A stretch of DNA of 42,902 nucleotides, taken from Myxococcales bacterium (GTDB taxonomy: Bacteria; Myxococcota_A; Polyangia; Polyangiales; Polyangiaceae). The stretch's first letter is position 1. The number at the start of each line of letters is the position of its first letter. Where the stretch lies: positions 1 to 42,902 of the forward strand of contig JAHFDZ010000012.1 in the NCBI GenBank assembly GCA_023248745.1, read 5' to 3'. The notes below the pieces were generated by a model. The model was not told where the DNA came from, did no database searches, and worked only from the letters and a program-made list of their open reading frames with translations. The position numbers were made by a program, and so were the translations under genes. Of the stretch, positions 22,106-26,895 are shown piece after piece.

Positions 22106-22792
22106 CTAGCCGAACACTTCGATCGCACTACCATTCATGGCAAGCGGAGCATCGAGCGCGGCATACGTAACCGTGTTTGCGACGTCTTCGGGGGTCATCG
22201 CCGGTGCAAAGCCGCTGCCCAAGAGCATCGCGGTATCGACCGAACCTGGCATCACGCAGATCGAACAGAGCGCCGCTCCGCGCAGTTCTTCGGCGAGCGA
22301 CTTGCTGAAGCCAACAAGTCCCCACTTGGACGCACAATAGGCGGACAACTGCTTCGTACCAAGCGTTGACGATATACTTGCAACATGCACAAATCTGCCC
22401 GCACCCGCGGTAAGCATCGCGGGTAAGAACGCGCGCGTCACTTGAAACGCCGCCGTGAGGTTGACCGTGAGCACGTGGTTCCACTCCTCATCGGACGTTT
22501 CGGCAACCGATGCGCGATGGACCACGCCCGCATTGTTGACGACTACAAACGGCACGCCCACTTCGACGAGCACACGGGCGCTCGCCTCTACGATCGCGGA
22601 AGGCTTTGCGAGGTCACACACAATCGATGTAGCGCGCGCACCCGTTGCGGCGAGCTCATAGGCGACTTGGTTCAGCTCATTGACTGTTCGCGCGAGTAAG
22701 ACGACGTGGCAGCCTCGCGCTGCAAGCGAACGCGCGACGGCGCGGCCGATACCGCGGCCAGCACCGGTGACAACCGCGATCACGAAGGACAC
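22106..22792 (-). CDS. SDR-family oxidoreductase
   Basis: The protein is 228 residues. It is a classical short-chain dehydrogenase with NAD(P)-binding TGAGRGIG (9-16), NNAG at 89-92, catalytic Ser in ASISST, and YCASK as the Tyr-Lys pair. An Arg in LLARTVNEL after the second strand favours NADPH. The substrate is unknown; neighbouring FolE could suggest a pterin, but the sequence looks more like the general FabG-like branch. The GTG start at 22792 overlaps folE by 13 bases; GTG at 22783 gives a GTGA overlap and is equally plausible. Confidence 0.9.
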
Positions 22793-23334
22793 CGCAAAGT
22801 TGACATCGCTTCAGCGCGATCGCCTTCGGTACCGCGAAACGAAAATGTTTCGACCTCTGCACCGTGCGCCTCTTCTCCGCGCGCCACCATGCAGCCGTGC
22901 GCAAGCTCAATTCGGCACGCTACCCACTTTGGACTGAGGTGTTGCGCGAGGGCGCCGACGACACTTTCGCCAAGCGCTTCCTGGAGCACCAAGCGCTTCG
23001 CGAATGCGTCAACCACCTGAACTATCGCGCCAAGCCCCACCAATTTCGCCTCGGGGCGAAATGCAACGGTCGCAGTTCCAATTCCTGGCAAAAGGTGATG
23101 CGGGCACATCGTCGTGACCCTAACGTTGCGGACTACAACGGTGTCGCTCGTTCCTGAAAGGACATTGGCGCTGAGCAGCGCGTCAACGTCGACCGAGTAC
23201 CCCGACAAAAGTTCGTCGATGTAGGCTGCAGCGACACGCTCAGGAGTGCCCACAAGCTCGGGCTCACGCTCAGCGTCGCGGCCGAGCGCACGCAAAAATG
23301 CATCGATTGCAACAGCCGCCGCGGCGCGATTCAT
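22780..23334 (-). CDS. folE: GTP cyclohydrolase I-like protein (FolE family, variant site)
   Basis: The protein is 184 residues from ATG 23334 (GTG 23343 adds three residues). FolE opens GTP to 7,8-dihydroneopterin triphosphate for folate, pterin and queuosine synthesis. The zinc ligands are kept: C77 and H80 in CPHH and C148 in HGCM; H79 and H146 also match the catalytic His pair. Guanine-binding Glu is kept (E119 in LQEAL). Several triphosphate ligands known from the E. coli enzyme appear changed: in place of GLSKINR it has GLGAIVQ, and TPKRIAK reads TPERVAA. It may accept another substrate or bind the triphosphate differently. Overlaps the SDR gene, so it is coupled to it. Confidence 0.85.
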   Translation of the reverse strand: MNRAAAAVAIDAFLRALGRDAEREPELVGTPERVAAAYIDELLSGYSVDVDALLSANVLSGTSDTVVVRNVRVTTMCPHHLLPGIGTATVAFRPEAKLVGLGAIVQVVDAFAKRLVLQEALGESVVGALAQHLSPKWVACRIELAHGCMVARGEEAHGAEVETFSFRGTEGDRAEAMSTLRCPS

Positions 23335-23382
23335 GGGGAGCACTTCTAGCGCAACTCGTGTTGCGGCTACGTGAAATCAAAC

Positions 23383-23406
23383 GTCAACAAAGTCAAAACG
23401 GTTGAC
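23383..23406 (+). promoter_or_regulatory. Inverted repeat GTCAAC...GTTGAC upstream of class III alcohol dehydrogenase
   Basis: GTCAAC (23383-23388) and GTTGAC (23401-23406) form a perfect 6-bp inverted pair separated by 12 bases, with a central AGTCAAAAC. The right arm overlaps TTGACC, which could serve as a -35 element, with a poor -10 (CCTAAC) 17 bases on. It could be a regulator site for the aldehyde gene, or chance. Confidence 0.35.
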
Positions 23407-23458
23407 CAACCGAGAGCATTCTCACCTAACCTGCACACTCTCAAAATCGGAGGTCACC

Positions 23459-24571
23459 TTGAGAACGCGCGCAGCCGTCGCATACGACGCAGGAAAGCCC
23501 CTTGTCATCGAAGAGGTCGAACTCGACGGTCCAAAGGCCGGCGAAGTCTTGGTCGAAATGAAGGCCACGGGTGTGTGTCACACCGACGAGTTCACGCGCT
23601 CTGGCGCTGATCCCGAAGGTCTCTTTCCTGCAATCTTCGGCCACGAAGGCGCGGGCATCGTGCTCGACGTTGGCCCGGGTGTCACGACACTCAAGAAAGG
23701 CGACCACGTCATTCCGCTCTACACCCCGGAGTGCCGCGTTTGCAAATCGTGCCTCAGTCGTAAGACAAATTTGTGCACTGCCATTCGCGCAACGCAGGGC
23801 AAGGGTTTGATGCCGGACGGCACCAGCCGCTTCTCGATCGGCAAGCAGAAGATCTTCCACTACATGGGCTGCTCGACCTTTGCACAGCATTCGGTCGTGC
23901 CGGAAATTGCGCTCGCCAAGGTTCGGGACGACGCGCCGTTCGACAAGATTTGCTACATCGGCTGCGGCGTTACCACCGGCATCGGCGCGGTGATCTACAC
24001 GGCGAAGGTCGAACCCGGCGCAAACGTCGTCGTGTTTGGACTCGGCGGTATCGGACTCAACGTCGTGCAGGGCGCCAGAATGGCCGGCGCGGACAAAATC
24101 ATTGGCGTCGACATCAACCCCGATCGAGAAACACTCGCACGCTCCTTTGGGCTCACGCACTTCGTCAACCCAATTGACGTACAAGGCGATCTCGTCGCAC
24201 ACCTCGTCGAGCTCACTGGCGGCGGCGCCGACTACAGCTTCGAGTGTGTCGGCAACATTTCACTGATGCGCCAAGCACTCGAATGCTGTCATCGCGGATG
24301 GGGCGTGAGCGTCATCATCGGCGTAGCTGGCGCCGGGCAAGAGATCGGCACGCGACCGTTTCAACTTGTGACGGGTCGCGTGTGGAAGGGGAGCGCTTTT
24401 GGCGGCGCACGCGGGCGCACCGACGTGCCAAAGCTTGTCGACTGGTACATGCAAGGCAAGATTGAAATCGATCGCCTCATTACCCACAAGCTGCCGCTCG
24501 CACGCATCAACGAAGCGTTCGACCTTATGCACGAAGGAAAATCGATTCGAACGGTCGTCGAGTTTGGCTAA
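23459..24571 (+). CDS. frmA: S-(hydroxymethyl)glutathione dehydrogenase / class III alcohol dehydrogenase
   Basis: The protein is 370 residues from TTG 23459, chosen because GGAGG lies 5 bases upstream and the family starts with TRAAVAY at this point; the frame stays open further back without a match. It oxidises the glutathione adduct of formaldehyde with NAD. Catalytic zinc ligands are in TGVCHTDE and GHEGAG. The structural zinc site has four cysteines in [15 protein letters not shown]. The Rossmann nucleotide loop is FGLGGIGLN. Length matches the family. No formylglutathione hydrolase gene is adjacent. The stop overlaps the convergent XRE gene by four bases. Confidence 0.95.
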
Positions 24572-25119
24572 GCGCCCGACGCGAAGAGTACGACCGAATA
24601 TCCGATAGCTTTCCGCGTCCCCAGGTTTGCGTAGCTGTGACGCTGGTCGCCGCGGAACGCGACCACGTCGCCCACTTCGAGCACGTACGAGTCACCAGAC
24701 ACAATGACTCCGATCGTACCTTGCTCGCACGCGAGGTACTCACGTGTCCCGGGCATGTGAGGAATGCCGACCATGCGCGCCTTTGTGGGCAACTCGAAAC
24801 GATCGATTTCGGTACCGGGCAACGGATCAGGCAAGAGCTTGCGCACGAGCGCTTGACCACGCTGCTTTACGGGCAGCACGCCCGCTGGATAATGGCTCGC
24901 GAGACCGCGCGTTTGACTGAGCAACTCTTCGGTTGAAACGCCAAGTGCAAGCGAAGCGCGCGACAGCACGGCGAGCGTAGGGTTGGCGGAACCCGTTTCG
25001 AGGCTCGCCCACGTGGCTCTTGGGATTTCGGCCATCTTTGCGAGTTGAGCTTGGGTAAGACCTCGAGCCTCACGCAGTGCACGAACGTTACGACCGAGCC
25101 TGACGGAGAGCGATTCCAT
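24568..25119 (-). CDS. XRE-family repressor/regulator with C-terminal cupin domain
   Basis: The protein is 183 residues from ATG 25119; the open frame extends 13 codons further, through the operator, which makes the upstream start unlikely. The helix-turn-helix covers about 5-60 ([21 protein letters not shown] region). A cupin fold follows at about 100-180 with [16 protein letters not shown] and [17 protein letters not shown]-type motifs. XRE-cupin regulators bind palindromes and sense small molecules, often controlling an adjacent catabolic gene. The perfect palindrome at 25132-25149 lies just before its start and before the divergent SDR gene, so it probably controls both. Confidence 0.9.
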
Positions 25120-25131
25120 TGCAAGAGAACT

Positions 25132-25149
25132 GTGCCAGTAAACTGGCAC
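25132..25149. promoter_or_regulatory. Perfect palindromic operator between XRE-cupin and SDR genes
   Basis: GTGCCAGTAAACTGGCAC has two 8-base arms around AA. Further out, GCAAGA (25121-25126) and TCTTGC (25150-25155) form a second, less symmetric inverted pair. A -10-like TATGAT lies at 25159-25164 reading toward the SDR gene, and the palindrome covers the expected -35 position. The likely reader is the XRE-cupin protein. Confidence 0.8.
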
Positions 25150-25203
25150 TCTTGCCACTATGATGTCCTCGTCGATGCATCGTTCTTAGCAAGGAGAACG
25201 ATC

Positions 25204-25875
25204 ATGGACGACATTCGAGCGGTTGTAACAGGCGCCAGTCGCGGGTTGGGCGCGGCGTTGACCGAGACATTGGCCTCACGCGGCGCTCATATTTTTGCGG
25301 TATCGAAGAATGGGCCGCGTCTTGAGAAGCGCATCTCGGGATGGAAGGCGAAGGGCTACAAGGTGGATGGCTACGCCTCAGACGTTGCAGACAAATCGGC
25401 GGCGATTCCGATTGCGTCTACGGCCAATGAAGTTCTCGGATCAGTCAACTTGGTTGTCCATTGCGCCGCGACATTGGGATCGGTTCCGCTTGCGCGTCTC
25501 CTTGACACTGACTGTGAGGACCTTGAGCGCGCGCTCGCGGTAAACGTGGTCGGCCCCTTTCGGCTAACGAAGCACCTGATGCGCGCGATGATCTTGCAAG
25601 GCGGAGGAACGGTTGTGCATGTCACGAGCGATGCCGCGACAAGCGCGTATCCAACCTGGGGCCCGTATGGCGCAAGCAAAGCTGCCCACGATCACCTTCA
25701 GCGCACTTGGGCGGCCGAGGTGCCAGGTTTGCGTTTCCTCAATTTTGATCCGGGCGAGATGGACACCGACATGCACCGTGCGGCCGTCCCGGACGCCGAC
25801 CGGAGTGCGCTTCGAACGCCGAGCGACGCCGCAGCCGAACTGATCGCGCTAATTGAGCAATCGAGGAGTGCCTAG
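25204..25875 (+). CDS. SDR-family oxidoreductase
   Basis: The protein is 223 residues from ATG 25204, with AAGGAGA 6 bases upstream. It has TGASRGLG nucleotide motif (9-16) and YGASK catalytic Tyr-Lys with Ser in HVTSD. The usual NNAG is replaced by HCAA, so it is an atypical classical SDR. Its partner is the QueA-like gene 3 bases on, and its operator lies in the 84-base divergent gap. The substrate is unknown. Confidence 0.9.
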   Translation: MDDIRAVVTGASRGLGAALTETLASRGAHIFAVSKNGPRLEKRISGWKAKGYKVDGYASDVADKSAAIPIASTANEVLGSVNLVVHCAATLGSVPLARLLDTDCEDLERALAVNVVGPFRLTKHLMRAMILQGGGTVVHVTSDAATSAYPTWGPYGASKAAHDHLQRTWAAEVPGLRFLNFDPGEMDTDMHRAAVPDADRSALRTPSDAAAELIALIEQSRSA

Positions 25876-25878
25876 CCG

Positions 25879-26895
25879 ATGCTCGCATCCTCCACTCCAG
25901 ACCTTCTAGGCAAGCGGCTTATTTTAGTCAACACAGTTGACCACGCGATTTCGACAAGCGGCATCGAAGACCTCCCGCTCAGAATCCCGAGCGGCGCGCT
26001 CATCGTGATGAACGATTCTGCAACGCTGCCGGCATCCCTATCGGGAGCGTACGAAGGCCAGGACATCGAACTTCGGCTCACAGGAAGGCGCAAAGACGCA
26101 CTTTGGCAAGCGCTCATCTTTGGTGAAGGCACCTACCTCACACCCACGGAACAACGAGCAACGGGTCCGCAACTGGCGATCGGAGATTGCGTGCACCTCA
26201 AGGCGCTCACCGCCACGGTGCGAGCGCTCGAATCGCATCGCCGGCTCGTGTGGGTCGAATTCACACCTATCGAAGGCACATTTTGGAGTGCGCTCTACGC
26301 TTCGGGGACGCCCGTACAGTACGCCTATGCGCAACGGCCCATCGATCTCTGGAACGTTCAGACCGCCATTGCGGCAAGGCCGTGGTCGGTCGAAATGCCA
26401 TCGGCGGCAAGACCTCTCTCATGGGAAATGGTTCAGAAACTTACCGATCGCGGCATCGCGGTCGCAACACTGACACACGCCGCAGGACTGTCATCAACAG
26501 GCGACGCACAGCTCGATGCGCGCCTGCCATTCGATGAGGCTTACGACATTCCTGATCGAACGGCGCGTGCGATTCGAGACGCTATCGCTGCGCAACGACC
26601 CATCATCGCCGTCGGAACATCCGTCGTTCGCGCAATCGAATCAAACGCTCACCAACACCACGGTCAGGTGCGTCCCGGTCGCGGGATCGCGCGTTTGCGT
26701 CTGAGCCAATCGTTCGCGCCGCAGATCGTCAGTGGTCTTGTGACGGGGATTCACGAACCAGGATCAAGTCACTGGGAACTGCTGCGCGCGTTTGTCCAGA
26801 GCGACTTACTCCAACGGGCTGCACTCACCGCAAAACGCGATCACATGCGCACGCATGAGTGGGGCGACACCTGCCTTGTTGGCGCACTCAGTTGA
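25879..26895 (+). CDS. QueA-family S-adenosylmethionine:tRNA ribosyltransferase-isomerase-like protein
   Basis: The protein is 338 residues. True QueA transfers a ribosyl group from S-adenosylmethionine to preQ1 in tRNA during queuosine synthesis. Shared landmarks are MNDSATLPASL (44-54), GTPVQY (143-148), VGTSVVRAIES (245-255) and the late SGLVTG. The conserved TAGLHF segment is replaced by SAARPL (175-180) and the C-terminal segment reads GIHEPGSSHWELL, as in a shorter, divergent QueA-like group. I therefore give no gene symbol. It is cotranscribed with the SDR gene and overlaps the convergent DUF2203 gene by 8 bases. Confidence 0.85.
   Translation: MLASSTPDLLGKRLILVNTVDHAISTSGIEDLPLRIPSGALIVMNDSATLPASLSGAYEGQDIELRLTGRRKDALWQALIFGEGTYLTPTEQRATGPQLAIGDCVHLKALTATVRALESHRRLVWVEFTPIEGTFWSALYASGTPVQYAYAQRPIDLWNVQTAIAARPWSVEMPSAARPLSWEMVQKLTDRGIAVATLTHAAGLSSTGDAQLDARLPFDEAYDIPDRTARAIRDAIAAQRPIIAVGTSVVRAIESNAHQHHGQVRPGRGIARLRLSQSFAPQIVSGLVTGIHEPGSSHWELLRAFVQSDLLQRAALTAKRDHMRTHEWGDTCLVGALS

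Follow-up and report, generated by a model that had tools for sequence, protein, structure and literature searches.

The question raised by this locus is whether a palindrome lying between two divergent transcription units of a Myxococcales bacterium is a working control element and, if so, which protein reads it and to what end. The window, that is, the whole stretch of 42,902 nucleotides that was analysed, carries a gene for an XRE-cupin regulator and, divergent from it, a gene for an SDR oxidoreductase followed by a QueA-like gene (Table 1). The gap of 84 bases given in the preliminary description is borne out when counted from the ATG of the regulator to that of the SDR gene, and the palindrome placed within it, GTGCCAGTAAACTGGCAC, is read from the window at 25132-25149. 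It had been called exact, and this holds for the 8-base arms, GTGCCAGT (25132-25139) and ACTGGCAC (25142-25149), which are 100% complementary across a spacer of 2 nt, but not for the centre, where AA is asymmetric; the reverse complement, GTGCCAGTTTACTGGCAC, differs from the 18-mer itself. The 18-mer amounts to the dyad O1 plus one base on each side. On the comparative evidence that follows, the palindrome is very probably a real operator.

Table 1. Features of the intergenic region and the genes on either side of it, in window coordinates.
Feature	Positions	Strand	Basis and remarks
XRE-cupin regulator, 183 aa	24568..25119, including stop	-	ATG at 25119
Weak half-site AATGGAA	25114..25120	-	overlaps the regulator start codon; read from the sequence; 4.9 bits at offset +20
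Core operator dyad O1 (putative), TGCCAGT-AA-ACTGGCA	25133..25148		centre 25140/25141; 18.9 bits with the full matrix, 16.8 when the genus is left out of training
Half-site TGCCA	25153..25157	+	scores 6.1 bits at offset -19; lies 20 bp from the O1 TGCCA
SDR promoter, weak candidate -10 element TATGAT	25159..25164	+	read from the sequence; no convincing -35
AAGGAG, likely Shine-Dalgarno of the SDR gene	25191..25196	+	read from the sequence
SDR oxidoreductase, 223 aa, putative target	25204..25875	+	domain search; divergent homologue in 45 of 70 loci
QueA-like gene (PF02547), putative second gene of the target operon	25879..26895	+	

The regulator itself has the make-up expected of a protein that would read such a site. 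An alternative GTG at 25158 in the mechanical list of open reading frames would extend its gene across the palindrome; the homologues align from the ATG at 25119, which was therefore taken as the start. The N-terminal part is an XRE/Cro-C1 HTH domain, with PF13560, PF01381, PF12844 and PF13443 above cut-off (HTH_3/HTH_31), and the C-terminal part is a cupin (PF07883, Cupin_2, 30.3 bits against a cut-off of 27.2). A structural model with a mean pLDDT of 92.3 and a pTM of 0.67 has strands from 84 to 179, and its cupin region matches by fold the Cupin_2 domain of the XRE regulator 6b8w. As in other members of the XRE-cupin family, a palindromic site adjoins the regulator's own gene, judging from the sequence only. 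The nearest solved relative, and also the best fold match, is 1y9q, an HTH_3 family regulator of Vibrio cholerae (sequence E 7.3e-09), which matches over nearly the whole length but at 24% identity in the fold alignment, with a TM of 0.46 and an rmsd of 13.2, so that the relative placement of the domains in the model is different. Fold ranks 2-11 are occupied by the epoxidase HppE, an HTH-cupin enzyme that shares the two-domain fold with the regulator at 18-20% identity. Residues H121, E127 and H161 of the regulator are invariant and could bind a metal; the putative operator and the gene company point to regulation.

The palindrome by itself is weak evidence, since the window holds 5 entries (4 distinct places) with arms of at least 8 and a gap of at most 4, and 20 block shuffles average 4.45 entries; an 84-bp gap of the same make-up contains such a palindrome in 1.1% of 5000 shuffles. 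It is conservation that makes the case strong. Regulator homologues were found at E 1e-10 or better in 133 of the 193 genomes searched, and 70 of the 74 listed matches down to E 5.3e-51 were used, leaving out G038, G084, G172 and G174. The motif TGCCAA-N4-TTGGCA is common to the upstream regions of these 70 homologues: TGCCA-N6-TGGCA occurs in 14 of them (mean over 60 shuffles 0.0) and CCAA-N4-TTGG in 33 (0.2 in shuffles), and EM on 61 non-redundant regions, seeded with TGCCA-N6-TGGCA, arrived at TGCCAAt..aTTGGCA. With the full matrix, the focal site scores 18.9 bits, and those of two relatives of the same genus, G003 and G002, score 15.4 and 11.8; when the three members of the window's genus (g1) are excluded from the training, the scores are 16.8, 13.0 and 9.9 bits, respectively. 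A score of at least 12 bits is reached in 74.3% of the 70 upstream regions, most of which belong to the training set, as compared with 0.17% of 3500 block shuffles and none of 347 downstream or coding windows. In a scan of the window with the held-out matrix, the focal site comes first at 16.8 bits and the next match scores 11.4. Further, the centre lies 21-29 positions before the regulator's first in-frame start codon, as chosen mechanically, in 45 of 54 sites. False matches are not rare (24 other loci, 134,610 bases in all, yielded 10 of at least 11 bits, the best at 15.0 and 17.0), and the position of a site and its gene company therefore matter.

The motif also extends beyond the original set of relatives. 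A scan of named genome contigs from other lineages gave 45 loci, of which the 22 long matches were examined and the 23 short ones, mostly HTH-only, were excluded. Half of the long-match loci (11/22) were new, and an SDR match was present in 10 of these 11; L127 and L129 are near relatives. A site of at least 20 bits, with its centre 26-44 nt ahead of the codon for the first residue, was found in eight of the new loci, including MAGs labelled Acidobacteria and Vicinamibacteria, labels that may be wrong; no properly placed site was found in the other three (L128, L130 and L133). At L069, a locus of genome G010 whose regulator has the recognition motif PRATL, a 36-base perfect palindrome lies about 77-42 bases before the first codon of the regulator homologue.

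Around the core dyad, a regular arrangement of further half-sites has emerged from the relatives. Across 46 sites, half-sites follow one another in steps of about 10 bp and in alternating orientation, forward at -28, -8 and +11 and reverse at -19, +1 and +20 from the centre, a pattern that suggests tandem dyads 20 and 19 bp apart. The flanking half-sites are weaker than the core and reach 3 bits or more in 43% (-28), 70% (-19), 39% (+11) and 35% (+20) of the relatives' 46 sites. The smaller signals seen forward at +3 and -17 and reverse at -10 probably reflect the partial symmetry within the half-sites themselves. An extended -10 element of the regulator promoter may account for part of the +11 signal, and the +20 half-site often overlaps the start codon. 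Among the sites not used to define the pattern, the flanking half-sites recur in many, with L100 and L101 being without them.

In the focal genome, the strong elements are confined to O1 and the TGCCA at 25153-25157, whose partner half (about 25162-25168) is weak. The half-site at +20, AATGGAA, is doubtful, because an out-of-phase place at +16 scores higher, at 5.4 bits. The second, outer inverted pair that had been proposed does exist, as GCAAGAG (25121-25127) and CTCTTGC (25149-25155) with a one-base overlap with the inner arm, but it is broken in the same-genus relative G003 and is better read as an extra TGCCA half-site 20 bp from the first; for this disruption, the outer pair was rejected as a part of the operator. 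The letters AGTGGCAA at the flanking half-site are retained in G003.

Which protein reads the motif, and at which genes, is best approached through the company that the motif keeps. The regulator faces a divergent SDR gene in 45 of the 70 loci, with a QueA-like gene also present in the stretch examined in 41 of these 45; a site of at least 12 bits is found in 41 of the SDR-facing loci, the remaining four falling below. Such a site is kept at the regulator in 13 of the 25 loci without an adjacent SDR gene. When the SDR was searched in 13 genomes chosen from these 25, it was found elsewhere in eight of them, and no SDR gene was detected at E 1e-30 in the other five, all of genus g15. The displaced SDR gene lies on the same contig as the regulator, within about 4 kb, in G074, G099, G109, G142 and G149, on another contig in G037 and megabases away in G119 and G134, so that only three of the eight are well separated. 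In all eight displaced loci, which come from five genera, the SDR and QueA-like genes stand side by side and exactly one site of at least 10 bits (11.2 to 20.7) is present, at about 47 to 84 bp upstream of the first codon of the SDR gene, the focal distance being 63. G119 and G134 carry the site before the SDR gene and none before the regulator itself, where the best scores are -1.4 and -5.7 bits. The proposal that the palindrome is the operator of the XRE-cupin regulator thus gains support from sequence comparison, with the motif conserved before the regulator homologues and, in every genome with a displaced SDR gene, found upstream of that gene.

The converse search covered 78 listed genomes with a weak or missing regulator match, leaving out 40 unlisted genomes with no match and G101, in which the match is split. 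Six of the 78 genomes without a close regulator have the SDR gene; in four it neighbours an XRE-cupin gene that is diverged or truncated, and in two it lies at a contig end. Three of those four loci carry an intergenic site of 15.1-15.6 bits and the fourth (G066) none. The g15 loci L030, L032, L033, L034 and L040 keep the regulator together with a variant array, TTGGAG..CGCCAA..TTGGAA, and show no SDR gene at E 1e-30; the regulator may have another target in these genomes. Among the divergent neighbours in eight loci without the SDR gene, several of the open reading frames taken resemble shadow frames.

These observations bear on several other explanations of the palindrome. Although the window would be expected to hold about 4-5 palindromes of this size, chance is an extremely improbable origin for this one, given that a matrix built without its genus still ranks it first in the window and that the motif recurs at the same place in the homologues far above shuffles, conserved across the 61 non-redundant regions. 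It is also very improbable that the palindrome acts at the RNA level, within a leader transcript, as a hairpin, terminator or attenuator. The fold of 25110-25206 does have a z of -3.73, to which a second hairpin at the SDR start contributes, and the minus strand has a predicted terminator-like site, but what the relatives conserve are the letters TGCCAA/TTGGCA, accompanied by half-sites in steps of about 10 bp; moreover, G003 breaks two of the pairs but retains its 15.4-bit site, and a minus-strand hairpin directly before the regulator start would be an odd position for a terminator. As letters and phasing are conserved beyond pairing, the structured-RNA and terminator readings were rejected.

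A different regulator might bind the motif, with the XRE-cupin company being a by-product of synteny, and to this we assign a small likelihood. A site upstream of a gene is no proof of which protein binds there, the link between motif and regulator is an association of sequences, and all five tested g15 genomes keep the site at the regulator without the SDR gene. On the other hand, the motif persists at regulators without an adjacent SDR gene (13/25) and at SDR genes without an adjacent regulator (8/8). The recognition-helix motif PRATW is present in 59 of the 70 regulators, and a local site of at least 12 bits accompanies 50 of these 59 as against 4 of the 11 others (Fisher p 0.0018, with homologues that are not independent). 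Of the nine PRATW regulators that lack such a local site, six (L010, L013, L014, L016, L037 and L038) belong to genomes with a site at the displaced SDR gene. A reading closer to our own, in which the site is an operator but the regulator acts there as an activator of the SDR-QueA operon, or as an activator on one side and a repressor of itself, appears unlikely. The position of the focal dyad, centred some 63 bp before the SDR start codon, would suit activation, as would an SDR promoter that the scan did not recognise, as is possible for activated promoters; however, a site close before the regulator start, at +21 to +29 in 45 of 54 cases, suits repression, and all targets found for the six Pseudomonas XRE-cupin regulators with regulons determined in PMC7901475 were upregulated in the mutant.

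The reading that we prefer, and consider highly probable, is that the neighbouring XRE-cupin regulator has its core operator in the palindrome and that its dimers would repress in both directions until released by a ligand. The two HTH domains of a dimer would contact half-sites of the form TGCCA(A/G)T, spaced by one helical turn, and, going by the half-site pattern of the relatives, two or three dimers could line up about 20 bp apart on one face of the DNA. Such an array of dimers would cover the region of the regulator promoter and the space to the divergent SDR-QueA-like operon, and the bound regulator would shut off both its own gene and that operon. Release would then come from a small ligand bound by the cupin domain, possibly a substrate of the SDR/QueA-like pair. 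We infer that the regulator binds the site, that it does so as a dimer and cooperatively, that it represses rather than activates, and that a ligand releases it. Dual repression would be the likeliest mechanism because of the analogy with Pseudomonas and the position of 45 of the 54 sites so close before the start codon. A sigma-70 promoter scan of 25050-25260 reported none, so that statements on promoters rest on the alignment of relatives; no -10 element of the regulator is evident in the focal genome where relatives have one (TCTTGC).

The regulon had been expected to be small, and the comparison agrees with this in so far as strict patterns give no clear distant excess. In the focal genome assembly (459 contigs, 95% complete), the search for the 18-mer that had been suggested as a check returned one place at up to three mismatches, the control giving 4 forward and 0 reverse. 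TGCCAN6TGGCA occurs there at 8 places, as against 5 for the reversed control, and TGCCARTNNAYTGGCA with at most one mismatch at 2 places, the same as its control. Across 20 relatives, the exact consensus was found at 19 places, of which 11 adjoin the regulator and 8 lie elsewhere, and the control at 6. Strict patterns in the focal genome and these 20 relatives, a scope that leaves weak sites and missing contigs uncovered, thus give no clear excess over reversed-pattern controls that would speak for a wider regulon. At five of the eight remote places (L083, L086, L089, L095 and L096), tblastn at E 1e-5 detected neither a regulator nor an SDR, QueA-like or class III ADH gene as a neighbour; the remaining three, two in G080 and one in G061, were left out of the neighbour check.

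As a regulatory device, the site would be a known kind of local genetic switch. PMC7901475 describes Pseudomonas XRE-cupin regulators as local repressors acting at core promoters, mostly beside their own genes, with palindromic motifs where these are known and with release thought to follow the sensing of a pathway compound. The Pseudomonas aeruginosa regulators ErfA, PsdR, PauR and others in that account share with the present one an XRE HTH with a C-terminal cupin, a palindromic motif, a site beside the own gene, neighbours that encode enzymes and, as far as strict patterns show for the present one, few targets (PMC7901475). They differ from it in that the putative targets here are the SDR and QueA-like genes and that phased extra half-sites are present. 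PMC12565409 reports 223 clusters of XRE motifs; the motif TGCCAAN4TTGGCA was not found in print and may be among them. Judged by their listings, none of the papers found on XRE-cupin proteins with half-sites and cooperativity deals with such an array, and none of those found on QueA paralogues or tRNA ribosyltransferase-isomerases with SDR or XRE proteins describes the module.

The lambda-type phage repressors offer a further parallel, as XRE-fold dimers that bind several tandem dyads about two turns apart. In contrast to them, the HTH is followed here by a cupin domain, the spacing is about 20 bp and cooperativity is a proposal.

The second gene of the putative operon deserves separate attention. 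It belongs to PF02547, as does QueA (tRNA ribosyltransferase-isomerase), with 1wdi, 1vky and 1yy3 as solved relatives, but its product falls far below the curated QueA equivalog cut-offs (110.7 against 324, 78.8 against 267.45 and 41.5 against 588 bits), and a higher-scoring QueA (387.6 against 146.2 bits) is encoded elsewhere in the same genome, on contig C319. On both grounds, it is called a paralogue. The pairing of a QueA-like paralogue with an SDR gene recurs in many relatives, as well as in MAGs under other labels. It is conceivable, as a tentative proposal that we do not yet favour, that the whole forms an undescribed metabolic module in which a QueA paralogue with no role in tRNA ribosylates a small molecule from S-adenosylmethionine, the SDR reduces or oxidises the product, and the XRE-cupin protein senses a compound of the pathway and controls the operon from as many as three phased operators that form a cooperative array.

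A candidate recognition motif can now be assigned to a group of uncharacterised XRE-cupin regulators, and it is tied to an SDR and QueA-like unit that keeps the putative operator even where the regulator gene lies elsewhere. Owing to this link between motif and target module, the binding site and the pathway become directly testable.

Other features of the neighbourhood may be recorded alongside. The leader of the SDR gene contains an inverted repeat at 25179-25202, ATCGTTCT / AGAACGAT, whose loop and 3' arm include the Shine-Dalgarno, and the SDR leader of G003 has a 9-bp stem at the same place with a different loop; translational control through this repeat is possible. Convergent with the regulator, at 23402-24571, lies a gene for a class III alcohol dehydrogenase / S-(hydroxymethyl)glutathione dehydrogenase (615 bits against a cut-off of 543.95). 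Further along, at 22106-23343, a GTP cyclohydrolase I gene overlaps a second SDR gene, an arrangement that suggests pterin chemistry and stands outside the account of the operator.
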